Virus record (IMG/VR): IMGVR_UViG_3300032323_000214
Coordinates: 1 to 33,106 of that record
Reading direction: 5' to 3' (one strand)
DNA length: 33,106 nucleotides
DNA from: a virus
Shown: positions 1 through 33,106 of the stretch, piece by piece
How positions within the stretch are numbered: position 1 is the stretch's first letter
How the letters are laid out: every line of letters starts with the position of its first letter
Made by a program: the position numbers and the translations under genes
The notes under the pieces: model-generated
What the model was told of the DNA's origin: nothing
Seen by the model: only the letters and a program-made list of their open reading frames with translations
Database searches by the model: none

Positions 1-3000
1 CTGCGTTAAAATGCCCAGATATAAAGTCGTCGTATGCTTTAACCCCATCAGTAGCTAAGCTTGCACCTGGACCAGCCATACCAATAATAAAGTCATTAAA
101 CTGGTTAGCTACAGAATGGTCATACTTAGTATCCCTAAACCATAAGTTATTTAGCGACGTGCTTGATGCAATATCCGCATTGGTAATAGTAGATATGGGG
201 CCCTTCTCAAAGAAACTAGCTGCTTCTCCGAAATACTTAGGTATCCATACATTGCGGAACCATAGGTCTAGGTCACGTTCTTCAATAGGAATTGGGTCGT
301 CGTCATCACGCAATGCATTCCGTATACCCTCAGTCACAGCTATAACCATGCTATATAGTGGCATTCCAACAACACCCGCAAACATACCGGTCATCATTAA
401 AGTGCCAACAAGCTGAGTAGTAGCCTCACGGCGGGCGCGTGGATTGAGGTCAGACCCTTTAACCATGGTTAAGAAGTTACGTAACAAATATGCTGTAACT
501 TGTTGAGGGAACAGTTTAAACTGGAATACAATCCTTGCCGGAGGTGAACGCATAATGCGAGGGCGGTTGTACTTAGTATAGTTAAACATTGAGTCATAAG
601 TATTTTTAACCGCTTCATCAATTGCACGGGTAAACGCTTCCCCGTTTTTACCGCCAGACAATCCTTCTGAAAGTCCTTTTTTATAAGCAAGTTCAAACGA
701 AGTCATAAACATAATTTCACGGTTTAGTCGTTCTGAATGGTGAAATAATAACCCGGCAAAGTTAACAAACGCCCTAGTACCTCGACTAATTGCACCTTGG
801 TGAGTAGCAGATGGGGTACGTGCCATAGCCATAAGGTCGTAGGTGCGAGTAATTTCGGTAATGCCTCGTTCTGCAGCCTCTTCAAATGCAGCAGCAAGTA
901 TAGGGGTAGATTGCACATGCTTAGAAAAACCTATAGATAGTGGAGTATAGCTGCCATCAGGCTTAACAAACGTAGTATAGTTAAATACCTTGGTATATGC
1001 TGCTAATGCAGCGGCGGCTTTTACTTCTCCATATCTCGAAGCTAATACTGGATAGCCAAAAATAGGAATTGCAGTCATGTTAGCAATCGCTGATTTTATC
1101 GCCGTTAACCTATAGAAGAAAGCTGCTTGGTTAACCCCATTAGCAAATCTAGTCCAGAACTCATCTTCGTTTGACGGGGCTAGCTCTTCCCCAACACGAG
1201 TACCCACTTCATTTAAAAATTGACTTAGTTTAATCTTATCTTTAGGGGGCATACCCTCTAATGAGGCATGTGCTGAATCCATCTCGGTAGTAATGTCTGG
1301 ACCGAATTGAAGCCTGGGCAACTGATTAGCACTTGCATATCCTGAACGAACAAAGTTACGTAAAGAGTCACCACTAAAACCGGTAGTGCCTTTACGATGA
1401 ATGAATTGTTTACGGAAGCTTTGCTCAGGCATAGTGAGTAGATACATTTGATACACCGCATCTTTTAATGCTTCTTTATCGGTTACATTTTGAGTATCAA
1501 TAATTTTAAAGATACCTTGCAACATTTCACTAGCCTCAGTAGTTAAGTTACGAAGTTTAGTTAAATCGTTACCCGCATCAAACTCTCCGGACTCCAGGAT
1601 TTCGTCATAGGTTCTATTGTCGCCAGCTTTTTGTAACTGCTCTATGCGTTCGTCAATAAACATGTTGCGTTGAAGTTCGCTTTCAAACATGTAGAACTCT
1701 TTATTTACCCCTTTACCTAAGCTCATCCAGTAGCTACCGTAGCGCATCAACGGGAAATATACACCGACTTTTTTAGCATCTTCGTATGTTTTACGAATAG
1801 CAGCCATCAACATGCCCTTAGGGGTAGACTCGTTATCTATATCACCAGAAATGCTGGATTTTGCAATGCGCTCATCTAGGATTGCACGATGTAAATTAAA
1901 CATTGCTCTATAATGGTCACGAACTTTAGTAAATATACCGTGAGCTTCGCCTTTACCAACTCTCCCTGCTTCATTCCATAGCTTGTAAGCGGTGGTTATT
2001 CTGTTGGTTCTAAGTGTAATTTGACCTTTATATGCTGCTTTAGCACGAGGGTTACTTGCGGCATCCATTAGCTTACGTAACTCAGCTAGTTGAGAATCTC
2101 TAGATATAGCAATTGCTGCAGTAGTATGCAGGCTAGGGTCTACTTCTGCTAAGGTTGAATAGTGCATAAGGCGGCTTAATAGTCTTCCGCCAGAAGTATG
2201 AGCTTTTGCAAAATCTGCCCAGGGCTTAACTGTGTCGTCAATGGCAGCTAACATTTTACTGCGTGTAACCGCCATACGTTCTACTAGCCTATTAACTTGG
2301 TTTAAGTGAGGTATTTTGTCGCCAACCCAATCTGTAATTTGGCTAGTAGTTAATGCAGGTAAAAGAGTGGCTATGCTCTTGCTATCTAATGTGGTCCATA
2401 AAGTATTAAGTACTCGCTTTTTACCCGCCCAAGAGTCTGCTTCCATTAGTTTACTTAGTAACCCACCCATTTCCTCGGGGGATTCTGACCTTTGGATTTT
2501 TAGCAGTATGCTATCTACTTTTTTAGATGCAAGGATTCTTGGCGCTTCCCCTTCAGGCGCGGCACTATCCCCTAGCATTGCACGTACACCCGGTACGTCG
2601 TAAGGAACGTTTTCAATTGCTTCTACAAAGTTTTTAGGCTTAGCTGTTAATTTCTCTAAGGGTAGCGTCGCCCGTGCTCGTGCTATAAACTCATACTTAC
2701 TTGCTTTTGTAATTTCTTTTTCTTTATCCCTTAGCAGCGAAAAAGTAGATTTAGTATAAGGAAGATTGTTTTGGTTTTTAATATAATCTACTATTTGTGA
2801 AACAGGATAGTCATCTGTTGTGCCATATACTGATGGATGTCCAGGCATATGATAGCTTAATTGGATATCATAATCGCTAGCAAAAGTAATTGAAGGAAAA
2901 AAGTCAGCTTGCAATATTTCGTCGTTAAGACTACGAACCCAATCCCGAAGTTGTTCAAAAGCGGTATCCTTATCGCTATTAAATTTATCCTTAACGTCAC

Positions 3001-6000
3001 TTATACGCTGACGTATTTCGTCTTTGTTTAAAGCACCTGCTTGCTTAAGAACCGTTTCTAGTTTCTCTCTTTGCATTAAAGCGGCGCTATCTACTAAATT
3101 CTCTATATATCTATAAAACGAATTTGAATACCCATGACCTGTGGAATACTCTCCTTTCGTATTAACATAGCTCATAACTATTGCGTTAATATTTCCTCGT
3201 TGGGGTAGTTCAGTTTCTAGCGAATACGCATTAATAAGTTTACTAATCGGGGTTAGTGTCGCTTTAGTTTCAGGGTTATTAGGATTAACTAACGATGAAA
3301 TGCGTACAGCGGGTACTTCAAAACGAATATTACCGTTATAATCTTTTAATGCGTCTAGTTCTGGAACTATGTCTGAAACGGTAAGATTATTTATCGCTTG
3401 GTCAGCTTCATCTTTAACAATATCAAACGCCTCAAACATTTCTGGAGAATACCCTGTTATTCTTTCTACCGCTTCAATGTTACTAGAACTAAATAACGTA
3501 TTGGAAATAGCTTCAGTTACTGGAGAACTCTCGTATCTATAAGCTCTAACATCGTATATAAGACTTAATGCAGCAACATCTCCCTTTGCCGCTTCAGAAA
3601 TAACACGTTCAGCTAGGTCATAACCTTCTTTTTTTTCTTTTATTTTAGCTTCTTTTTTATCTGCCTCTAGTTGTTCTTCTGGCGATAACACTACTACTGG
3701 TGCTTGAGCTAAATTAGGATGCTCTTCTAATAAGTATTTATGGCTAGGTAACACAGTCTGCCCTGCACCTATACCAAACCATCGTGTAGGTTGTCCATCA
3801 GATAAATTATCTAGGGAAGCAACTAATGACTTACCGTTTTGTACGTAAACAGACATATTATTGTCTCGTAAGTAACTCCTACCGTGAGTAGAAGACCGTC
3901 CGGTACACCAGCTGCCTGGCTCTGAACCAGTATCTGCTGTTACAAGGCGCAACGCATTTGCAGAATCTACTCCTGAAAAGAATAACCATCCTGTTTCATC
4001 TTGTCCTACTTGAGACTTAATAATTCCATTGCGCTGCGGGAAAATAGTAGTCATAAACGCATCGTTTAATGCTTGTTTTGGAGACGCACCTTCATTTAAT
4101 TTTTCAAACATGGCGTCTACAAATTCAACTGAAATATCTTCGCCGTTTAAAGGCAAGTATTCATTTTTCTCAGTAATCGGAAGCAGTTTATTTCCAGCCA
4201 TAGCATATTTAGCTATGGCTTGGCGCATTAGTATTATGCCTTTGTGCATAGTAGTGCGTTTATTTTCGCGTTCTTCTTCGGATGCTGTATTGTACATATC
4301 CAAAAACATTTTAGTGTCGCCGTATTTGTCGCCTAACTCCCGCATTGAGCTTCTAAAAAATTGATTCCTATAGGAATTTGTACTTTCAGAATATCTTATT
4401 GCAGCTTCGCTAGGGTTTCTGTATACATTCCTAACACTATATTCAGCGGTATTTAAATTATATAAATTTAATGGTGGTAGTTGCGCTAGTACGCGCGCAG
4501 GGGATATAACTGCATCTACGGGAGTAGGGATATTAGACTCATATTCAGCTATAAAGTGTACAATTGCTGCTTTTTTATTCCCTGCTTTAAACTCAGGCAT
4601 AGTCTTAATATCGTCATAGAATAACTCTGTAAACGTTTTATCAATGCCTGGTTTTGTAAAGCCTAGTGACGCGTTTAGGTCTTTAGCTGATGCTAGGATT
4701 TTAGGCTTTTTACCTAACTCATCAGTTTCGTATATTTCTTTAGTAACTGCAGGGCTATCGGCAATTTCATTCGCCAACATATCTATCATCTCGGGCGTAA
4801 AGACAACCTTGCTCTCTGCTGTTTCAACCTTGCTAGTACCCACACGGGCTGCACCCTGAACTAATGTAACGATATCCTCAGCTGTTAATGTGCTTGGGTC
4901 TATATTTAGTTTGCGTAAGGATGCAAGTACTCCACGCCATAGCTCTTTAAGCCATGCAACAACTTTTTGTTTTTCCTTGGGCTGAGCTTTAAACGGGTCT
5001 ATACCATAACGATTGACAGCAATTTCTGTAAAGTACGCGACTACTTCTTGTTGATAACGCTCAGAATCAGGCGCTTCACCTGATACGTTAGCCATTCCAA
5101 CTGCTTCTTTAGCAATAACGTTTTCTAATGCATCGCCGCCTTTAGCCCATGTAAGCACTTGATTAGATAGCTTACCAACTCTAGGAACACCAACTAAATT
5201 AGGTAGTCCTATATGGACACCTTGCTCATGCAATATTGTGCCTCTAATTTGATTTTTAGGGATTTGACCAGCAATGTAGTAAGCTTTATTAGTACTAGGG
5301 TCTACGAACGCTTTAACTCCACCCTGTTCTGCCTGCTGTTTAATGTCATCAGATACGAGGCCAGTAAGGTCAGCATAGTCATTGACTACAACCGGCGGAT
5401 TAGTTTTAAGTTGTTGCGGCGGTAATAAGTCTTTTGCTGCGCTAGTAATTAAATTAATACTAGCTGATTCTTCATCAGGTGCAATTGGTTGAGGTGCAGT
5501 GGCGGGTGCAATTGGTTGAGGTGCAGCAACGGCAGCGGGTCTATATTCAGCTAATACGTTTCTACCTTGAGCTACATCTTCTAGCGTAACATCCGGGTCG
5601 TTTAGTGTGTCAATGTAGTCGTTATACGGGTCTAGGCGTCGCAGCTGTGCAGCTATCTGCTTAGCTTCTACTACATGAGGAAGTGTTTCATCTTGTTCTA
5701 CCGCTTCAGCAACTGGCTGTTCTGTTACTACCTCTTGCGCTTGCACGGCTTCAGGTGTGGGTGTTTCCATTGGGGCTGTTTCAGAAACAGGTAGTACTTC
5801 TTGTGGTTGTACAGTTTCAGCAGCGGGTGCTTCTAATGGGGCTTCAACTGGAGCTGCTTTAGAAACAGGTAGTACCTCTGGAGCTTGCACCGCTTCAATA
5901 GGCGCGGCTTTGAATTGCGTTAGCAAGTCTTTATATATAGTAGGTGACTGCGCAGCAACTTGCGCTATTTCGGGTGTGGTCTTAAGTAAGAAGTTCTTAA

Positions 6001-7477
6001 CTTGTGATGGATTTTTAAACGTCCTACCGGACTCACGCATTGTTTGAACTAAAGCAATTGGCTCTAATGCAGGTTGCTCGACAACCGCTCTTGTTTCAGG
6101 CTCTCCCACAATACTTCCAGGCCCAACCATTGTAGGTCCGATACCTTCTTCAACTCCTTCGGTAGGCTCAAGTCCTCGTTCTCCAGGTACAGGAACGCCT
6201 GCTCCAACTGTTTCACGCTTAATTCTTTCAACATCTTCAGCCTCCTTCTGGTCAGCAATATCTTGGTCAGCTAGCCTCTTAGCGTTCTCTGTTGTTTGCC
6301 CCAGTGAAGTATACTTCGTAACTAAGCTATCATACGATTCTCTTTTAGGAAGATTTGCAGTTAACCCTTTAGTTTTCCACGCTTCTAGAGCAGATTGCTT
6401 AGCTTCTTCTGCAGCTCGTTCCGGGGTATTAGCAAATTTATTAATTGCATATTCTGCAGCACTTCCGGGGACAGCAAGAGCTCCACCTAATACAGCGCCA
6501 CCAACAAAACTATCATAGTATTCTTTCCTTGCTTTCTCATCTGTAATAGACAGTCCGGCTTGCAAACGTTCTAGTAATTGCTGGCCTGTTTCTGTTGCGC
6601 CTTCTAAGCCCATTATTTTACCAGTACCGAGTGCATACTCTCCGGCTTTAGTTAGCAAAGATTTTTTAGCTAGTTGTTCAGCCACGTTTTCAGATATATC
6701 TATACCCGCTTTACCGAATATATTTCTAATACCTGGAATTAATCGGAACCCGTAGATGTCAAGCGCAGCTTGAGGAATGGCAGTAAGACCCGCCGTTAGT
6801 AGGTTTGTATCCTCTAACTTTTTATTGTTTTCCATTTGACGAGCAAGGTTACTACCCGCAAATTGAAGTAAAGATGTTGCCCCTGCCGCTAAAGGAACTG
6901 TAACTGGAGCTGAACCCAAAGCAGGGGCTGCCATTGCCGCTGCAGCTGGTGCCACCATATACGGCAGAGACCCGAATAACAATTCAGTAGTTTTTTCTAA
7001 AGGGGCTTCGGTAAAACTTTTATCTGTAGGTATGTAGGCACGTTCACCAGCAGCACGTAATTCTGCAGCACGTTTTTCTGCTTCTTCAGTGTCTCCTGTT
7101 ATCTTACCTTTAAGTAGTGCGACATCAGCACCAACGTTATATAGACCTTGCCCAAAAGCGCCCGCTGCAGTGTCGTTAGATGATAAGGGCGCAATAGGTC
7201 CTTTAACAGAGGGTACGCCTATAATATTTTCAGGTTCTATCTCACCAAAGATATTTGTTTTTGGCTTATCAGCGGTAGGTGTAGGTTTAGTAATTGGAGT
7301 ACCCCCAAACTTAGCAGCTAATGCGGCAGTGTCAGATGCAGGGGCAGCTTCTGGTTTTTCTTGGGCTACAGGAACCCCACCAAATTTAGCAGCTAGACGG
7401 GATACGTCTGTTTCTACAGGTTCTACAGACTCAATAGCTTTACCACCGTACTGAGCTGCTAACTTTTTTAAATCCAT
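1..7477 (-). CDS. Giant PLxRFG-type polyvalent virion protein, 3' end outside window
   Basis: An uninterrupted minus-strand frame gives 2492 residues and leaves the window without a stop. The start ATG (7475-7477) is preceded by GGAG at 5-base spacing. The N-terminus has three LAA(Q/K)(Y/F)GG repeats (residues 6-12, 28-34, 53-59). An Ala-rich hydrophobic stretch (about 155-205), a Pro/Ala/Glu-rich linker (about 525-670) and a zincin-like HEQGVH (750-755) follow. A WCTGRSS segment at 1190 recalls PcfJ-like domains of polyvalent proteins. PLMRYG (about 1909-1914) matches the PLxRFG signature. Near the C-terminus are LFHHSERLNRE and FQFKLFPQQV and hydrophobic segments typical of the family. Such proteins are known as huge multi-domain phage proteins, probably injected with the DNA; the enzymatic role is inference. 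HExxxH is one residue longer than classic HExxH, so catalysis is unsure. It ends the gene string with the other probable internal proteins. Confidence 0.85.
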   Translation of the reverse strand, partial: MDLKKLAAQYGGKAIESVEPVETDVSRLAAKFGGVPVAQEKPEAAPASDTAALAAKFGGTPITKPTPTADKPKTNIFGEIEPENIIGVPSVKGPIAPLSSNDTAAGAFGQGLYNVGADVALLKGKITGDTEEAEKRAAELRAAGERAYIPTDKSFTEAPLEKTTELLFGSLPYMVAPAAAAMAAPALGSAPVTVPLAAGATSLLQFAGSNLARQMENNKKLEDTNLLTAGLTAIPQAALDIYGFRLIPGIRNIFGKAGIDISENVAEQLAKKSLLTKAGEYALGTGKIMGLEGATETGQQLLERLQAGLSITDEKARKEYYDSFVGGAVLGGALAVPGSAAEYAINKFANTPERAAEEAKQSALEAWKTKGLTANLPKRESYDSLVTKYTSLGQTTENAKRLADQDIADQKEAEDVERIKRETVGAGVPVPGERGLEPTEGVEEGIGPTMVGPGSIVGEPETRAVVEQPALEPIALVQTMRESGRTFKNPSQVKNFLLKTTPEIAQVAAQSPTIYKDLLTQFKAAPIEAVQAPEVLPVSKAAPVEAPLEAPAAETVQPQEVLPVSETAPMETPTPEAVQAQEVVTEQPVAEAVEQDETLPHVVEAKQIAAQLRRLDPYNDYIDTLNDPDVTLEDVAQGRNVLAEYRPAAVAAPQPIAPATAPQPIAPDEESASINLITSAAKDLLPPQQLKTNPPVVVNDYADLTGLVSDDIKQQAEQGGVKAFVDPSTNKAYYIAGQIPKNQIRGTILHEQGVHIGLPNLVGVPRVGKLSNQVLTWAKGGDALENVIAKEAVGMANVSGEAPDSERYQQEVVAYFTEIAVNRYGIDPFKAQPKEKQKVVAWLKELWRGVLASLRKLNIDPSTLTAEDIVTLVQGAARVGTSKVETAESKVVFTPEMIDMLANEIADSPAVTKEIYETDELGKKPKILASAKDLNASLGFTKPGIDKTFTELFYDDIKTMPEFKAGNKKAAIVHFIAEYESNIPTPVDAVISPARVLAQLPPLNLYNLNTAEYSVRNVYRNPSEAAIRYSESTNSYRNQFFRSSMRELGDKYGDTKMFLDMYNTASEEERENKRTTMHKGIILMRQAIAKYAMAGNKLLPITEKNEYLPLNGEDISVEFVDAMFEKLNEGASPKQALNDAFMTTIFPQRNGIIKSQVGQDETGWLFFSGVDSANALRLVTADTGSEPGSWCTGRSSTHGRSYLRDNNMSVYVQNGKSLVASLDNLSDGQPTRWFGIGAGQTVLPSHKYLLEEHPNLAQAPVVVLSPEEQLEADKKEAKIKEKKEGYDLAERVISEAAKGDVAALSLIYDVRAYRYESSPVTEAISNTLFSSSNIEAVERITGYSPEMFEAFDIVKDEADQAINNLTVSDIVPELDALKDYNGNIRFEVPAVRISSLVNPNNPETKATLTPISKLINAYSLETELPQRGNINAIVMSYVNTKGEYSTGHGYSNSFYRYIENLVDSAALMQREKLETVLKQAGALNKDEIRQRISDVKDKFNSDKDTAFEQLRDWVRSLNDEILQADFFPSITFASDYDIQLSYHMPGHPSVYGTTDDYPVSQIVDYIKNQNNLPYTKSTFSLLRDKEKEITKASKYEFIARARATLPLEKLTAKPKNFVEAIENVPYDVPGVRAMLGDSAAPEGEAPRILASKKVDSILLKIQRSESPEEMGGLLSKLMEADSWAGKKRVLNTLWTTLDSKSIATLLPALTTSQITDWVGDKIPHLNQVNRLVERMAVTRSKMLAAIDDTVKPWADFAKAHTSGGRLLSRLMHYSTLAEVDPSLHTTAAIAISRDSQLAELRKLMDAASNPRAKAAYKGQITLRTNRITTAYKLWNEAGRVGKGEAHGIFTKVRDHYRAMFNLHRAILDERIAKSSISGDIDNESTPKGMLMAAIRKTYEDAKKVGVYFPLMRYGSYWMSLGKGVNKEFYMFESELQRNMFIDERIEQLQKAGDNRTYDEILESGEFDAGNDLTKLRNLTTEASEMLQGIFKIIDTQNVTDKEALKDAVYQMYLLTMPEQSFRKQFIHRKGTTGFSGDSLRNFVRSGYASANQLPRLQFGPDITTEMDSAHASLEGMPPKDKIKLSQFLNEVGTRVGEELAPSNEDEFWTRFANGVNQAAFFYRLTAIKSAIANMTAIPIFGYPVLASRYGEVKAAAALAAYTKVFNYTTFVKPDGSYTPLSIGFSKHVQSTPILAAAFEEAAERGITEITRTYDLMAMARTPSATHQGAISRGTRAFVNFAGLLFHHSERLNREIMFMTSFELAYKKGLSEGLSGGKNGEAFTRAIDEAVKNTYDSMFNYTKYNRPRIMRSPPARIVFQFKLFPQQVTAYLLRNFLTMVKGSDLNPRARREATTQLVGTLMMTGMFAGVVGMPLYSMVIAVTEGIRNALRDDDDPIPIEERDLDLWFRNVWIPKYFGEAASFFEKGPISTITNADIASSTSLNNLWFRDTKYDHSVANQFNDFIIGMAGPGASLATDGVKAYDDFISGHFNA
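5478..5526. repeat. 22-base perfect direct repeat inside the giant gene
   Basis: Copies at 5478-5499 and 5505-5526 are identical and offset by 27 bases, so the duplication is in frame and encodes two copies of APQPIAP in the Pro/Ala-rich linker. It looks like slippage-prone expansion of a flexible linker between domains. Confidence 0.85.
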
Positions 7478-16850: not shown

Positions 16851-17086
16851 TACACTTGTGCAGTAATTATTGCAGTTGAAGTTTTTTTATCTATGGTCAT
16901 GTACCCACTACAGATAATATTGTAGTCAGTTCCATTCTCATCTTTTTCGTCTTTTATAGGCACGGTAATGCTTAAATGCTTAAACAAATATTCTTTACCA
17001 TTCTCAAATACTCGCCAAACATGATCCGCTGTACCTCTTCCTTCTTGCCCACGAGACTTGTTAAATCTTATGCTGTACTTGTTCAT
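16850..17086 (-). CDS. Hypothetical 78-residue protein
   Basis: I do not recognise it. The ATG at 17086 forms an ATGA overlap with the stop of the oxygenase-like gene; a longer frame from 17113 would overlap by 31 bases and adds only an Arg/Ser-rich stretch, so the short start is chosen. The protein looks beta-rich: MNKYSIRFNKSRG, then DHVWRVFENGKEYLFKHL, SITVPIKDE and GYMTIDKKTSTAIITAQV. A family of such small proteins, paired with phage oxygenase genes in cyanophages, comes to mind but I cannot be sure. Confidence 0.6.
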   Translation of the reverse strand: MNKYSIRFNKSRGQEGRGTADHVWRVFENGKEYLFKHLSITVPIKDEKDENGTDYNIICSGYMTIDKKTSTAIITAQV

Positions 17087-17778
17087 ATAACTTCTGCTGC
17101 GGGCATAGAACATGCTGTTTGTGGTGCGAATTGAACAGCTAAATTAAAATGGACAAACTTAATAGGTTTATCGTTTGCATGTCGTGTAAATGAATGAGGC
17201 ATCCAAGCATTAGAAAATATCATAAGTCCTGGCTTAGCTTCAAAATTAATCATGTTACTACCAACTGTTGCGGCACTCGGATCCTGCTCTGGTAAATTAA
17301 GCTGCACTTTACCTGGCCTTGGGTCGTGAAATACTACACGTGACGAACCTTCTGGCACTTCTAAAAAATAAAACCCAACAATCTGCACGCCATACCCATG
17401 CACATGTTGCTCCATTGAGGAATGCTTATAGTGCTCTTGCGCCCACATTTCAGTAAATGTTACTACTTTATCTTGCATAGCATACCCTTGTTCATTTAGG
17501 ATATTCCACGCGGTAGCACCTACAAACTCCGTAAACCCGATAGCTCTTGGGTCAGCAAAAAAGTTGTCGCTCATATAAACTGGGTAAATCTCATCCAGTT
17601 TTTGTTCTTCATGTCGTACTACTAGTGATTCTTCTGATACTTCTGTTACTGCTTTTAAGAAATCCGGCCGTTCAATTAAGTAAATAGGGCATGGGAAATG
17701 GTACGCTACATCTAGTTGTGTTGTTAATTCCGTTTTTTCTACTACTTTTTTAGAATTCTTTTTGGCGCTTGTAGCCAT
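17083..17778 (-). CDS. 2OG-Fe(II) oxygenase-like protein
   Basis: The 231-residue protein resembles the 2OG-FeII_Oxy_5 type common in marine phages, which hydroxylate an unknown protein or small-molecule substrate using 2-oxoglutarate and iron. The core is HVHGYG (H125, H127), then IVGFYFLEVPEGSSRVVFHD (about 133-152), then GLMIFSNAWMPHSF with H195, and FVHFNLAV at 208-215. The arginine that usually binds 2-oxoglutarate just before the last strand appears as lysine (K207) by eye, so activity is not certain. The first 20 residues are Lys/Ser-rich. It lies between fibre and lysis genes; modification of a virion protein is one possibility. Confidence 0.75.
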   Translation of the reverse strand: MATSAKKNSKKVVEKTELTTQLDVAYHFPCPIYLIERPDFLKAVTEVSEESLVVRHEEQKLDEIYPVYMSDNFFADPRAIGFTEFVGATAWNILNEQGYAMQDKVVTFTEMWAQEHYKHSSMEQHVHGYGVQIVGFYFLEVPEGSSRVVFHDPRPGKVQLNLPEQDPSAATVGSNMINFEAKPGLMIFSNAWMPHSFTRHANDKPIKFVHFNLAVQFAPQTACSMPAAEVI

Positions 17779-18329: not shown

Positions 18330-19646
18330 TTAAGCGCCTACATTAGTTGATGGAAATGATGGGGTACCGCGTGTGCCACCTACGCACCATACAATACGTA
18401 CTGCTCCAACCGCCCCTGCACCGCCAGCAGAAGCACTAGAATACCCGCAGCAAGTTTGTCTGATACCAGCACCGCCACCACCTCCACCAAATGAGCCTCC
18501 AGCGCCACCAGTATAGCTAGCACCATTTTGCCCATTAGCACCGCTAGAGCCAGTTACGCCGCCAAATCCAGAACCTGGAGATGAAGAGCTACCTCTAGCC
18601 CCTCCTGTGCCACTTGTTCCCTGACCAAGCAACCCCACACCGCCACCAGCGCCGCCGCCACCCCAAGCTGGAAGTGCACCAGGAAAGAATCTACTGCCAG
18701 AACCACCACCTCCACCGCCGCCGCCAGAACCAGCCGAGCCAGCAACACCGCAACCACCAGTAACAAGACCACCAGCACCCCCATTTCCACTATATCCTCC
18801 AGCGCCACCACCTCCAGAACCACCAGCAGTACATATGGCACACTTGCGACCGCCAACGCCTCCTGCACCTCCGGTTCCAACTATTACTGCGCCACCAGCA
18901 GGGTTAAAATTGCCACATTTGCGCCCTGCGCCTCCACCTCCAGCCGACACAAGTGTTGAACCAAAAGAAGATGTACCACCAGCATTTCCAATAGAACCAG
19001 CATTTGCCGCCTGCCCTGCTCCACCATTACCAACAACGACCGTATAAGAAGTTCCAGGTGTTACGCTTATTGCATTGACATAAGAAAGGGCGCCACCACC
19101 GCCGCCAGTACCTGTAGAACCAGAAGTATTTGAACCCGCACCGCCACCGCCACCACCGACAGCTACAACAGCGACTGATGTAACACCAGTAGGAGCTACC
19201 CACGAGAACGTACCGGCAGTTGAGAATGTTGCACAAGTTTGAATAGCGACAGTAATACTATTAGATGGCGCACTAGCTCCACCTGTACCTGCACCGTTTG
19301 TTGCTCTTACTGTAAATGTATAAGCCGTTCCGTTAGTCAACCCAGTTACAGAAATAGGAGATGAAGCTCCAGTACCAGTAATACCCCCAGGGCTTGATGT
19401 TGCTATATAAGATGTTATCGCAGCACTACCTATATCCGTAGGAGCAGTAAATGCAACTGTTGCAGTACCAGAACCAGCTGAACCCGCCGTAGCAGTACCG
19501 ATAGTAGGTGCACCTGGGCTTCTAGGCCAAATGCCTTGTCGGGTGTAATTTTGTGCTTGGCATACTGTCCATACGCCTGATGCCGCAGTTGTCGTCGGAG
19601 TAATTGGTGTACCCCGAATAATTCCACCTGGATATTTTTTACTCAT
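18330..19646 (-). CDS. FN3 plus glycine-rich tail adhesin, copy 3
   Basis: A 438-residue host-recognition protein, the third and longest of three tandem paralogues. A fibronectin type III domain lies at about 44-133 (GAPTIGTATAG ... GLTNGTAYTFTVRATNGAG). A shared strand TFSWVAPTGVTSVAVVAVGG (about 147-166) follows. The rest is a run of glycine-rich loops (AGGSGGGGAGGYSGNGGAGG and others) that could pack as polyglycine-II helices, as in T4-like gp38 adhesins. Cysteines are scattered in the variable loops (RKCGN, RKCAIC, RQTCCGY), possibly for local cross-links. It ends RGTPSFPSTNVGA, a variant of the conserved end of its sisters. It starts directly after the preceding stop (TAAATG). Confidence 0.8.
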   Translation of the reverse strand: MSKKYPGGIIRGTPITPTTTAASGVWTVCQAQNYTRQGIWPRSPGAPTIGTATAGSAGSGTATVAFTAPTDIGSAAITSYIATSSPGGITGTGASSPISVTGLTNGTAYTFTVRATNGAGTGGASAPSNSITVAIQTCATFSTAGTFSWVAPTGVTSVAVVAVGGGGGGAGSNTSGSTGTGGGGGALSYVNAISVTPGTSYTVVVGNGGAGQAANAGSIGNAGGTSSFGSTLVSAGGGGAGRKCGNFNPAGGAVIVGTGGAGGVGGRKCAICTAGGSGGGGAGGYSGNGGAGGLVTGGCGVAGSAGSGGGGGGGGSGSRFFPGALPAWGGGGAGGGVGLLGQGTSGTGGARGSSSSPGSGFGGVTGSSGANGQNGASYTGGAGGSFGGGGGGAGIRQTCCGYSSASAGGAGAVGAVRIVWCVGGTRGTPSFPSTNVGA

Positions 19647-20717
19647 TTATAAATTTCCTGTATTTGTTGATGGGAAGCTACGTGTTGTGCCAGGCCAGAT
19701 GATACGAACTGCACCTCTACCAGAACTTCCTCCTCCACACGCAGGGGCGCCACCGCCACCACCACCATAAGTACCGGCGCATTTAGTTGAGGTAGACGTC
19801 CCACCAGAACCGCCTCCGCCGTTTGCAGTACCATTTGCGCCTTGACCTAATATACCTACTCCGCCGCCGCCTCTAGCTACAAAACTACTGGCATTACCGC
19901 CGCCACCACCACCACCAGAACCGGCTGATCCAGACCCACAACTTATTCCACCGTTGCCACCATTACCAGCATATCCTCCAGCACCTCCACCTCCGCCGCC
20001 AGTAGCGTTTCCTCGACTTCCGCCGTTTCCACCACCATCATAAACGCCACTAGGAGAGCCTCCGCTGCCACTACCACCACCAGCCGTCATTGTTCCAAAT
20101 AAAGCGGTAAAAGAAGATGCTTGCCCACAAGTACCACCACCACAACCTCCGGTTCTGAGAGCGGCAACAACAACCGAATAACTATTACCTGGAACTACAG
20201 TTATGTTGTTTTTGTACGCCAACGCGCCGCCACTGCCACCAACACCACCAGCAAGATAACCAGCTCCAGACGCTCCAGAGCCAACAGCTACAACAGAGAC
20301 AGATGTGACACCAGCAGGGGCAACCCAAGAAAACGTACCAGCAGTTGTATATGCTTGCTGACCTATAACAGCAGGAGTTGCAGAATTAGAAGCGGCACTC
20401 AACGGGCCTGTACCGTTTGTACCCGTTGCCCTTACCCTAAATGTGTATGCCGTTCCAGTAGTTAAGCCTGTTACAACCACAGGAGAAGAAGCATTAGAGG
20501 CTGTAACACAGCCAGGAGTTGATATAGCCGTGTAAGACGAGATACCAGAAGGAAAAAGTCCTGTGCAAGCTGGGGCTGTAAAAGCAACCGAAACAGAAGT
20601 TGCAGATGCGACAGTAGCCGTACCAATAGTAGGTGCACCGGGTGTTGCTGGCCAAATGTTTTGACCCCTAGCTTGAAATTGTTCTGCTGCGTTCCAAATT
20701 CCAGAAAAATTAGGCAT
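19647..20717 (-). CDS. FN3 plus glycine-rich tail adhesin, copy 2
   Basis: A 356-residue paralogue with the same order: N-terminal SGIWNAAEQFQARGQNIWP, FN3 domain (about 26-113), the strand YTTAGTFSWVAPAGVTSVSV, and a glycine-rich domain up to the end RSFPSTNTGNL. The glycine-rich part carries its own variable cysteines (GGCGGGTCGQ, SCGSGS, TKCAG, PACGG). The blocks GYAGNGG and GILGQGANGT are shared with copy 1 while the loops between differ. Start and stop couple tightly with its neighbours (TAATG at 20717). Confidence 0.8.
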   Translation of the reverse strand: MPNFSGIWNAAEQFQARGQNIWPATPGAPTIGTATVASATSVSVAFTAPACTGLFPSGISSYTAISTPGCVTASNASSPVVVTGLTTGTAYTFRVRATGTNGTGPLSAASNSATPAVIGQQAYTTAGTFSWVAPAGVTSVSVVAVGSGASGAGYLAGGVGGSGGALAYKNNITVVPGNSYSVVVAALRTGGCGGGTCGQASSFTALFGTMTAGGGSGSGGSPSGVYDGGGNGGSRGNATGGGGGGAGGYAGNGGNGGISCGSGSAGSGGGGGGGNASSFVARGGGGVGILGQGANGTANGGGGSGGTSTSTKCAGTYGGGGGGAPACGGGSSGRGAVRIIWPGTTRSFPSTNTGNL

Positions 20718-21760
20718 TATAAATCTCCAGTATTTGTTGATGGGAAGCTACGTGTTGTGCCTGGGTAAATAATACGGACTGCTCCACCACCACCAGCACT
20801 TTGACCGCCTCCACCGCCATACAGTGTACCCGATCCGCCCGAACCAGCTCCACCATTAACGCTACCTGATGTACCTGCTGTACCGTTTGCGCCTTGACCT
20901 AATATACCTACGCCACCGCCATTACCTGCTGCACTTCCGCCACCGCCACCGCCGCCACTACCTGCAACTGCTGTTCCTGATGCAACACCGGTACCTCCAT
21001 TACCAGCATATCCGCCAGCCCCGCCAGCCCCACGAGGAGAAGTGCAATATTGCCCGGTACCCCCATTACCTCCGCCTGTACCTGTAAAGCCACCTCCACA
21101 GTTAAAGGATCCACCACCACCACGAACTGTGCTTGTGTTTATAAAATAACTACTTGATGCATTTGCCCTAGTAGGACTTCCTTGACAACTAGCGTAAGCT
21201 CCACCACTAGCAACAACTACAGTATACGAACTGCCTGGGGTAACTGCTTGGTTATTTCTATAGCCTAAACCGCCTCCACCACCACCACTATTATATCCAG
21301 GGTCGCCACAATTACAGTATTGGTTTCCTAATCCGCCACCGCCACCGCCAACAGCTACAACTGAAACAGAAGTAACCCCCGCAGGAGCAACCCAAGTAAA
21401 CGTACCAGGTGTTGTATATGCTTGTTGACCTATAATAGCAGGAGTTGCGGAATTAGAAGCTGCACTAGGAAAACTTGGCCCAAAAGCGTTAGTTGCTATA
21501 ACCCTAAACGTATATGCCGTACCTGTAGTTAAACCTGTAATCGTCAAAGGAGAAGATGCACCAGAAGCAGTTCTTACCCCGCAGTTTGCGTAGGCTGTAT
21601 AAGACGAGATAGCCCCACCGCCAATACATGAAGGGGCAGTAAAAGCAACAGAAACAGTAGTTGCAGATGCAACAGTAGCTGTACCGATAGTAGGTGCGTT
21701 AGCGACTCTTAATGGGTTATAACCAGGCAATATAATGCCAGCTTGTCTGCTCCAGGCCAT
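20717..21760 (-). CDS. FN3 plus glycine-rich tail adhesin, copy 1
   Basis: A 347-residue paralogue, first of the three in transcription order. FN3 domain at about 22-111, shared strand YTTPGTFTWVAPAGVTSVSV, glycine-rich domain with variable loops (NQYCNCGDPGYNS, SCQGSPTR, SFNCGGGF, QYCTSPRG), and the end VRIIYPGTTRSFPSTNTGDL. The N-terminus, MAWSRQAGIILPGYNP, differs from copies 2 and 3, so each may dock to a different site or to the same site through the following domain. Probably exposed at the tip of a fibre. Confidence 0.8.
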   Translation of the reverse strand: MAWSRQAGIILPGYNPLRVANAPTIGTATVASATTVSVAFTAPSCIGGGAISSYTAYANCGVRTASGASSPLTITGLTTGTAYTFRVIATNAFGPSFPSAASNSATPAIIGQQAYTTPGTFTWVAPAGVTSVSVVAVGGGGGGLGNQYCNCGDPGYNSGGGGGGLGYRNNQAVTPGSSYTVVVASGGAYASCQGSPTRANASSSYFINTSTVRGGGGSFNCGGGFTGTGGGNGGTGQYCTSPRGAGGAGGYAGNGGTGVASGTAVAGSGGGGGGGSAAGNGGGVGILGQGANGTAGTSGSVNGGAGSGGSGTLYGGGGGQSAGGGGAVRIIYPGTTRSFPSTNTGDL

Positions 21761-31730: not shown

Positions 31731-32102
31731 ATGCCATTTAAAGATCCGGCAGTTCGTAAAGCCAAAGCAAAGCTCTATTCAAAAAATCACTATGAACTTA
31801 ATAAGCCAGCGCAAATAGAACGAGTTAGGATAGGTAAGATTAAGAAACGAGTTCAATGGGAAGCATATAAGGCCACACTTCAATGTGCAAACTGTGGTGA
31901 AAACCACCCCGCCGCGTTAGATTTTCATCATTTAGTAAAAGACCCTTCTAATAGAAAGATAAGCGAACTAGCTCAGAATGGGGCTTATAAGTTAGCCAGG
32001 GAAGAAATAGAAGCTAAGTGCATAGTGCTCTGTGCAAACTGCCACCGCAAACACCACCACGAAGAACGTCAATTAAAAGAAGGTCAAATTACAGAAAGGT
32101 AG
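31731..32102 (+). CDS. HNH endonuclease (free-standing, homing-like)
   Basis: The only plus-strand gene. Its 123 residues have an N-terminal basic part (DPAVRKAKAKLYSKNH) followed by QCANCG (C52, C55), ALDFHH (His 66/67, the HNH catalytic region) and CIVLCANCHRKHH (C101, C104, H105, H108-109). The four cysteines bind the structural zinc and the His residues the catalytic metal. Such enzymes nick or cut DNA and, when free-standing in phages, help their own gene spread into rival genomes (homing). It sits next to pqqA and opposite to the operon; the RBS (TTGAGATATTT) is weak. Confidence 0.9.
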   Translation: MPFKDPAVRKAKAKLYSKNHYELNKPAQIERVRIGKIKKRVQWEAYKATLQCANCGENHPAALDFHHLVKDPSNRKISELAQNGAYKLAREEIEAKCIVLCANCHRKHHHEERQLKEGQITER

Positions 32103-32196: not shown

Positions 32197-32218
32197 ATAA
32201 TAACAAATTTGTTATTAT
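32197..32218. repeat. Perfect 22-base palindrome at the end of pqqA
   Basis: Half-site ATAATAACAAA is mirrored exactly, with no central spacer, and the repeat overlaps the pqqA stop codon (32215-32217). As RNA it can form a 9-pair AU-rich hairpin with loop AAUU; on the plus strand TTTGTT follows, on the minus strand AAACTTTT. It may act as a weak two-way terminator between the convergent pqqA and HNH genes, or as a binding site for a dimeric protein. Confidence 0.75.
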
Positions 32219-32286
32219 TTGTTCATTACGTACATTGTAACTTCAAAGCCAAAACGCATTTCAGTAGCTGCTGGTGTAGTCCACAT
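32215..32286 (-). CDS. pqqA: PqqA, precursor peptide of pyrroloquinoline quinone
   Basis: A 23-codon gene, ATG 32284-32286 to TAA 32215-32217, with RBS AAGGA eight bases before the start. It encodes a peptide with M-W at the start and RFGFEVTMYVMNK at the end. The length (23) and the pair E15 and Y19 in the motif EVTxY are exactly those of known PqqA (e.g. Klebsiella), in which the radical-SAM enzyme PqqE, with chaperone PqqD, cross-links this Glu and Tyr as the first step to PQQ. PQQ is the cofactor of methanol, glucose and alcohol dehydrogenases. No pqqB-E is in the window, so the host must supply the enzymes. It is a candidate auxiliary metabolic gene. Its origin from a methylotroph host (Methylophilaceae-like) is inference. 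Confidence 0.9.
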   Translation of the reverse strand: MWTTPAATEMRFGFEVTMYVMNK

Positions 32287-32294
32287 GATATTAG

Positions 32295-32299
32295 TCCTT
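32295..32299 (-). promoter_or_regulatory. Ribosome binding site of pqqA
   Basis: On the minus strand AAGGA lies 8 bases before the pqqA ATG, in AAGGACTAATATC. A strong site at good spacing is part of the reason to accept so short a gene. No strong promoter is visible between it and the capsid terminator; a weak pair (TTGTTT, 17 bases, GATTAT) exists. Confidence 0.75.
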
Positions 32300-32307
32300 A
32301 ACGAATA

Positions 32308-32325
32308 ACAAGCAAAATTGCTTGT
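32308..32325. repeat. Inverted repeat in the pqqA leader
   Basis: ACAAGCAA and TTGCTTGT flank a 2-base centre (8 pairs as DNA; about 6 as RNA with a 6-base loop). It lies 22 bases upstream of the pqqA start, 9 bases ahead of the RBS. It may protect the 5' end of a short mRNA processed from the capsid transcript, or serve as a regulator site. Confidence 0.55.
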
Positions 32326-32377
32326 ATGTAATAATCCGCCTAATATTCAACACAAACAATACAGAAAACCATTAAAA

Positions 32378-32397
32378 AAGGGGACCGAAGTCCCCTT
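32378..32397 (-). terminator. Rho-independent terminator of the major capsid gene
   Basis: On the minus strand AAGGGGAC pairs with GUCCCCUU across a UUCG tetraloop and is followed by a run of U (UUUUUU, including stem end). It starts 19 bases after the capsid stop. This is a textbook intrinsic terminator and isolates pqqA from the capsid gene except by readthrough. Confidence 0.9.
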
Positions 32398-32416: not shown

Positions 32417-33106
32417 TTAGCCTTGTGAACCGAACATACCTAATGGATCTGACCAACCGAATGAATAACGCTCACGTGATTTATAACGTACGTTACCTGT
32501 GTCGAAATCACCGTCCATTGAATTGGTTAGTGGAGTACGAACAAAGTGTTTCATGCCGTTAGGAACATCAGTTGTCAAGAACCATGCGTTTGTATCGGTC
32601 AAGAAGTGGTTAATTGTATAACCTTCTGGGATAGAACCGTTGTTCTTGATCGCGTTGATATCGTTATCAGCAGTAGATACACGAAGTTCAGTTTCCAACA
32701 AGCGAGTTGCGGTAAATTGCAATGCTGGTGGAACGACCAATTTTTTAGGTTTAGCAGCGATCAATAGGCCACGCTCATCCGTCCAAGCAGCGATTTGAAT
32801 AACAGCATTTTCCAATGAAGTTTCGTTCAAGTCTGTTGGAGTTGTTGGGATGTTTGAGTTTGAACCGCCTGAAACAAGAGTATGGGTAGCTGAGAACAAT
32901 GGAGCACCATCGCCACCTGGATAGTCTGTATCAAAACCGTTGTTCAATACACTTGCAGCTTTCACTTGTTTTGTGTAAGCCATAGCACGAGCTAATGCTT
33001 TTGTATAACGTGCAGACAATGAGTCATACAAGTTATCTTCGATAGCTTCTTCAGTTAAGCTGAAGCCTAAAGCAATAGTTTCGTGGTTGTATCGAGCAGT
33101 CCATGC
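32417..33106 (-). CDS. Major capsid protein, C-terminal part (5' end outside window)
   Basis: The frame is open to the right edge (229 residues visible); a TTG at 33031 is not a real start because the frame continues upstream with HETIALGFSLTEEAIEDNLY. The visible part has GAPLFSATHTLVSGGSNSNI, then TDERGLLIAAKPKKLVVPPA, STADNDINAIKNNGSIPEGY, AWFLTTDVPNGMKHFVRTPL and GNVRYKSRERYSFGWSDPLG. This is the pattern of HK97-fold major capsid proteins related to Mu gpT, which assemble into the icosahedral head. It is followed by a strong terminator, as expected for the most abundant protein. Confidence 0.85.
   Translation of the reverse strand, partial: AWTARYNHETIALGFSLTEEAIEDNLYDSLSARYTKALARAMAYTKQVKAASVLNNGFDTDYPGGDGAPLFSATHTLVSGGSNSNIPTTPTDLNETSLENAVIQIAAWTDERGLLIAAKPKKLVVPPALQFTATRLLETELRVSTADNDINAIKNNGSIPEGYTINHFLTDTNAWFLTTDVPNGMKHFVRTPLTNSMDGDFDTGNVRYKSRERYSFGWSDPLGMFGSQG

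Follow-up and report, generated by a model that had tools for sequence, protein, structure and literature searches.

A 23-codon pqqA gene between capsid and HNH-like genes of a phage genome, and its recurrence in methylophages

Background

The first step of PQQ synthesis is the cross-linking of a Glu and a Tyr of the peptide PqqA by PqqE with PqqD, and each PQQ made uses up one PqqA. Among the bacteria using this cofactor are the Methylophilaceae, which in lakes and along coasts rank among the main users of one-carbon compounds such as methanol. In another group of viruses, the cyanophages, psbA is carried for the fastest-turning photosystem subunit.

Phage pqqA is not new as such. The gene was described in a T4-like methylophage population of Lake Baikal, VP_266, with a proposed role as an aid to methanol oxidation (PMC7678222, 2020), and pqqA, pqqD and pqqE appear in a list of viral genes from reservoir sediments, where they were read in terms of phosphate solubilisation (PMC13188868, 2026). 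The genome papers of the phages Venkman, MEP301 and MEP401/402 leave PQQ unmentioned, while that of Melnitz names it only as a medium component. The DNA analysed here, referred to as the window, is a viral contig of 33,106 bases from IMG/VR without end repeats, for which a first-pass annotation had proposed a hidden pqqA gene on the minus strand.

Results

Identity and genomic context of the gene

Direct translation from ATG to TAA (Table 1) gives the peptide MWTTPAATEMRFGFEVTMYVMNK, 23 aa long with E15 and Y19 as the first-pass annotation had read it, and this peptide exceeds the cut-offs of both Pfam PqqA PF08042 (40.3 bits, E=3e-10, cut-off 21.1) and NCBIfam TIGR02107 (38.8 bits, E=5.6e-10, cut-off 20). 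The PqqA core R-x-G-x-E-[VI]-T-x-Y with its E-x3-Y spacing is present as RFGFEVTMY, and the AAGGA that had been pointed out before the start lies 8 nt 5' of the ATG. The record has a single PqqA match, and the claim that no other pqq gene is present agrees with the search of the whole window, where no pqqB-E appeared at E<1. When the gene was compared with the PHROGs, no family for PqqA was matched.

The proposed location between the terminator of the capsid gene and an HNH gene was recovered as well, both neighbours being found, the HNH match only below the cut-off; the HNH-like gene is conserved in a sister phage (L493, 2488-2859). The phage genes around pqqA encode the major capsid protein, a lysozyme/endolysin, an SU10-type adaptor and a virion structural protein, and on the basis of these genes and of the same gene in cultured phages, pqqA sits inside a genuine phage genome. 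Elsewhere in the window a giant open frame (2-7477, minus strand, at least 2,492 aa) runs off the window end, and from its size and position our guess is a giant virion protein, either structural or internal. A 2OG-Fe(II) oxygenase, a common accessory gene of phages, is found at 17083-17778 (minus strand; PF13759, phrog_81), and three consecutive proteins rich in glycine, whose Fn3-like repeats are alike in composition and which are apparently tandem paralogues, occupy the tail region at 18330-21760 (minus strand).

Table 1. Features at the pqqA locus of the window
Feature	Position	Strand	Evidence
HNH-like endonuclease gene, convergent downstream neighbour	31731..32102	+	two CxxC pairs, HNH-like C-terminus, PF01844 below cut-off
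AT-rich inverted repeat ATAACAAATTTGTTAT, just 3' of the pqqA stop	32200..32215	.	direct reading
pqqA CDS, 23 aa and TAA stop	32215..32286	-	PF08042, TIGR02107, host identity, sister comparison
Ribosome-binding site AAGGA	32295..32299	-	direct reading
Hairpin ACAAGCAATTTTGCTTGT at the predicted pqqA mRNA 5' end	32308..32325	-	stem-loop scan and folding
-10-like hexamer GATTAT, 22 nt 3' of the operator-like box	32331..32336	-	sequence
17-bp operator-like box TTAATGGTTTTCTGTAT	32359..32375	-	PWM score
Intrinsic terminator of the major capsid gene	32378..32397	-	stem of 8 pairs and T-run
Major capsid protein gene, Mu gpT-like, upstream neighbour, runs off the window	32417..33106	-	PF10124 E=2.9e-9, phrog_371

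Comparison with host pqqA genes

Host copies were found by scanning prokaryote genomes for RFGFEVTMY, and the alignment with Methylophilaceae PqqA that had been suggested earlier gave identity at 23 of 23 residues with a PqqA whose gene neighbours pqqBCDE in genomes of Methylotenera type (L212, L231, L264, L310 and L319). At the DNA level 70 of the 72 bases are identical to host copies (L253, L239, L231 and L229), and the nearest other phage pqqA, among those compared by position, shares 68 of 72.

In a set of Methylophilaceae genomes reached via "Methylophilaceae bacterium 11" (locus L284), pqqA was present in 185 of 187 genomes and in at least two copies in 171, with a median of 3, a mean of 4.0 and a maximum of 12 copies per genome. 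Three to twelve pqqA copies together with a single pqqBCDE have been reported earlier (PMC4109929), and from the median of 3 in the present set precursor dosage seems to matter. The methylotroph gene is amplified as both tandem and dispersed copies, some host contigs having two or three pqqA within 0.2-3 kb (L229, 3948-4019 and 5610-5681; L251, 7092-7361; L299).

Sister phages and selection

In L493, the closest sister phage found, the order capsid-pqqA-HNH-next gene is kept at 87-90% nucleotide identity, and its pqqA differs from that of the window at five codons, all synonymously. A lack of conservation in sister phages had been named beforehand as the result that would speak against the gene, and in this comparison the gene held. 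Four further relatives of the window lineage show 23 synonymous changes out of 24 in pqqA. Among 96 distinct phage alleles, using only codons outside the search pattern, dN was 0.125 and dS 0.83 (dN/dS ~0.15), and these codon comparisons show phage pqqA to be under purifying selection.

Distribution among viruses

A tblastn search of 50,697 phage records revealed PqqA in P19250A (23/23 residues), Venkman, MEP301, MEP401, MEP402 and four Melnitz records, the remaining matches being a Manatee Spring podovirus and two bacterial contigs wrongly labelled as phage. In the records of the matched phages the pqqA site is either left without a feature or annotated as a hypothetical ORF. The two bacterial contigs, filed as Acinetobacter phages, contain pqqABCDE, fur and ppk and were excluded as apparently bacterial; L007 (CAKLQF020000010.1), labelled Acinetobacter phage MD-2021a and harbouring pqqABCDE, fur and a polyphosphate kinase gene, looks like a bacterial contig.

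Scanning IMG/VR with a degenerate pattern gave at least 120 stretches, and all those listed decode to PqqA-like peptides. A second pattern, restricted to one arginine codon, gave at least 120 matches; as that codon occurs in 10 of 93 sampled genes, this extrapolates to ~1,100 or more viral contigs with pqqA in IMG/VR, redundant contigs counted in, and the gene is probably present in about a thousand environmental viral fragments. Another 43 viral contigs carry other PqqA types, such as MKWETPTYVDLRFGFEVTMYIYNR, a form seen in methanotrophs. None of the viral loci checked contained pqqB-E, and the idea of a full PQQ pathway on phages was rejected on this ground.

When the flanking genes were compared, the loci fell into 25 groups, a rough count obtained by single linkage on two shared ORFs. 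With blastn, the 7 kb around the gene have ~75 bp in common with cultured phages and nothing else, and this sole overlap indicates that pqqA moves between otherwise unrelated phages. In the Venkman lineage pqqA is found in 31 of the 36 nearest loci. It occurs at the same place as in the window in 2 of 80 close relatives of the window capsid and in 12 of 80 relatives of the next structural gene, many of these relatives being truncated contigs of unknown host. In the capsid lineage of the window pqqA is an accessory gene, and a position beside the capsid gene as a rule was rejected (2/80).

The region upstream of pqqA

The box upstream of phage pqqA has the form TTMATGRTTTTMYTTAK and resembles the palindrome CTAATGA-TTT-TCATTAG upstream of host pqqA genes. 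A PWM built from 67 host sites reached the threshold of 8 bits in 71 of 119 phage pqqA upstream regions versus 1.3% of shuffles, and a phage matrix did so in 62 of 70 later-fetched, held-out upstream regions versus 2.8% of shuffles, a test only partly independent since the 70 include relatives of training sequences. With a PWM built without the window lineage the box of the window scores 20.0 bits, the runner-up in the 33 kb (both strands) scoring 10.3, while with the host-only PWM it is weak (2.4 bits).

A TATAAT-like hexamer exactly 21 nt after the box was identified in 31 of the 113 phage cases used for training and in 35 of the 62 held out, a spacing that would put the box near -42, like an activator site overlapping -35. 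The same spacing was looked for at host pqqA genes and not found, and the promoter geometry of phage and host thus differs although the box is common to both. The box lies 115-142 bp upstream of each of the five pqqA genes in one host genome (G106). When three host genomes were scanned for a wider regulon, the sites outside pqqA showed no clear pattern. A perfect palindrome, CTCATGAAAATCATGAG, lies within a divergent gene pair other than pqqA, whose products appear to be secreted (L574, ~1501-1517; host G001:C1:1854002), and is a possible second target of the putative regulator of the pqqA box.

The hairpin ACAAGCAATTTTGCTTGT folds with -7.7 kcal/mol versus -3.0 kcal/mol for shuffles, and hairpins occur in many, not all, phage pqqA leaders (mean z -1.1, n=99), which moderately supports such a structure at the predicted start of the mRNA in the window and in many relatives. 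The capsid terminator is predicted to insulate pqqA from upstream transcription, and the inverted repeat after the stop codon is possibly a weak bidirectional terminator. With capsid terminator, operator-like box, -10, leader hairpin and ribosome-binding site, pqqA is predicted to be a free-standing transcription unit. Overall the first-pass annotation is supported in its identification of a phage PqqA; it had missed the operator-like box and the -10, the breadth of the distribution and the multiple pqqA copies of the hosts.

Discussion

The peptide of the window is established as a phage-encoded PqqA by two curated profiles, the full identity with host PqqA, the exclusively synonymous change in the sister phage and the recurrence in cultured methylophages. 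The gene is a homologue of a host metabolic gene retained by selection. Its most probable role, which we hold with considerable confidence, is that of a functional phage copy of host pqqA, originating from a Methylophilaceae-type methylotroph and acting as an auxiliary metabolic gene that sustains the precursor supply for host PqqD/PqqE. That the host is a methanol-eating bacterium we infer from pqqA itself.

The gene would have been taken from a methylotroph and kept as a transcription unit of its own between structural genes, and its peptide would be processed by host PqqD/PqqE and the later enzymes. After infection PqqB-E, being reusable, may outlive host shut-off, and the PqqA precursor would run out. 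Because PqqA is consumed with each PQQ and PqqB-E are reusable catalysts, a supply of peptide alone could suffice, and the phage-made peptide might thereby sustain PQQ levels, and with them methanol dehydrogenase activity and electron flow, in the infected cell. Against a benefit to the phage it can be said that hosts with 3-12 copies may gain little from one more, unless host transcription is shut off.

The match of 70 of 72 bases with host Methylotenera copies means that capture could be recent, and a chance piece of host DNA or an assembly chimera, carried as an unselected passenger, was considered, a case that the first-pass annotation had also raised. This is hardly credible when the same gene order recurs in L493 at the divergence given above with synonymous changes only, and when the gene is carried by cultured phages and more than 100 viral contigs; host DNA or a chimera was rejected on account of L493 and the cultured phages. 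The conservation of the box across phages and hosts would also fit a regulatory decoy, in which the many copies of the box supplied by replicating phage genomes draw the pqqA regulator away from the host genes and the peptide is the passenger. That reading is very improbable, since the peptide is under strong purifying selection with synonymous freedom and the phages retain a -10 at fixed spacing, a ribosome-binding site and the full ORF.

A peptide identical to that of the host would occupy PqqD/PqqE, and excess PqqA could in principle inhibit or divert these enzymes; a use of PQQ by the phage beyond methanol dehydrogenase, for example in redox protection, would also fit the sequence. We regard these alternatives as unlikely. 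For an inhibitor, loss or change of E15/Y19 would be expected, whereas the substrate residues are fully conserved, and the hosts amplify pqqA themselves.

Beyond the supply of precursor by this one phage, a wider proposal, which in our judgement has an even chance of being right, is that an orphan pqqA with a host-derived operator is near-universal and overlooked in phages of PQQ-dependent methylotrophs (probably also of methanotrophs), gained by unrelated lineages because precursor supply and not the enzymes limits PQQ in infection, and usable as a marker that tells the host of an uncultured virus. The gene has 72 bases and is skipped by most gene callers, and a probable key metabolic gene has thus been overlooked in phages already in culture, which points to a general blind spot for viral genes encoding precursor peptides. 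Phage control of methanol oxidation becomes directly testable, pqqA provides a marker by which viruses of PQQ-dependent hosts can be recognised from sequence, and a conserved operator-like box at pqqA, hitherto undescribed, is brought to light. In the literature searched, preprints and subscription journals aside, what appears to be new is the breadth of the distribution, the oversight in cultured methylophages, the evidence for selection and the shared box.

Comparison with known systems

The window gene shares with Methylophilaceae pqqA the whole peptide including E15/Y19, the ribosome-binding site and the upstream operator-like box, and an orphan pqqA away from pqqBCDE occurs in these hosts too. 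It differs in being phage-encoded, between capsid and HNH genes, and in its shorter leader, where 21-22 nt separate the box from the -10, a spacing not seen in hosts. VP_266 of Lake Baikal is likewise a presumed Methylophilaceae virus with a phage PqqA; its contig is T4-like and also carries a methanol dehydrogenase, whereas the window comes from a small phage of a different lineage and has pqqA on its own, with a regulatory box and comparative evidence for selection. The list from reservoir sediments also includes pqqA among viral metabolic genes, without the link to methylotrophs or an analysis at the gene level. Cyanophage psbA concerns an unrelated protein and pathway, and its benefit is experimentally supported whereas that of pqqA is inferred; the likeness lies in a phage that would provide only the component used fastest.
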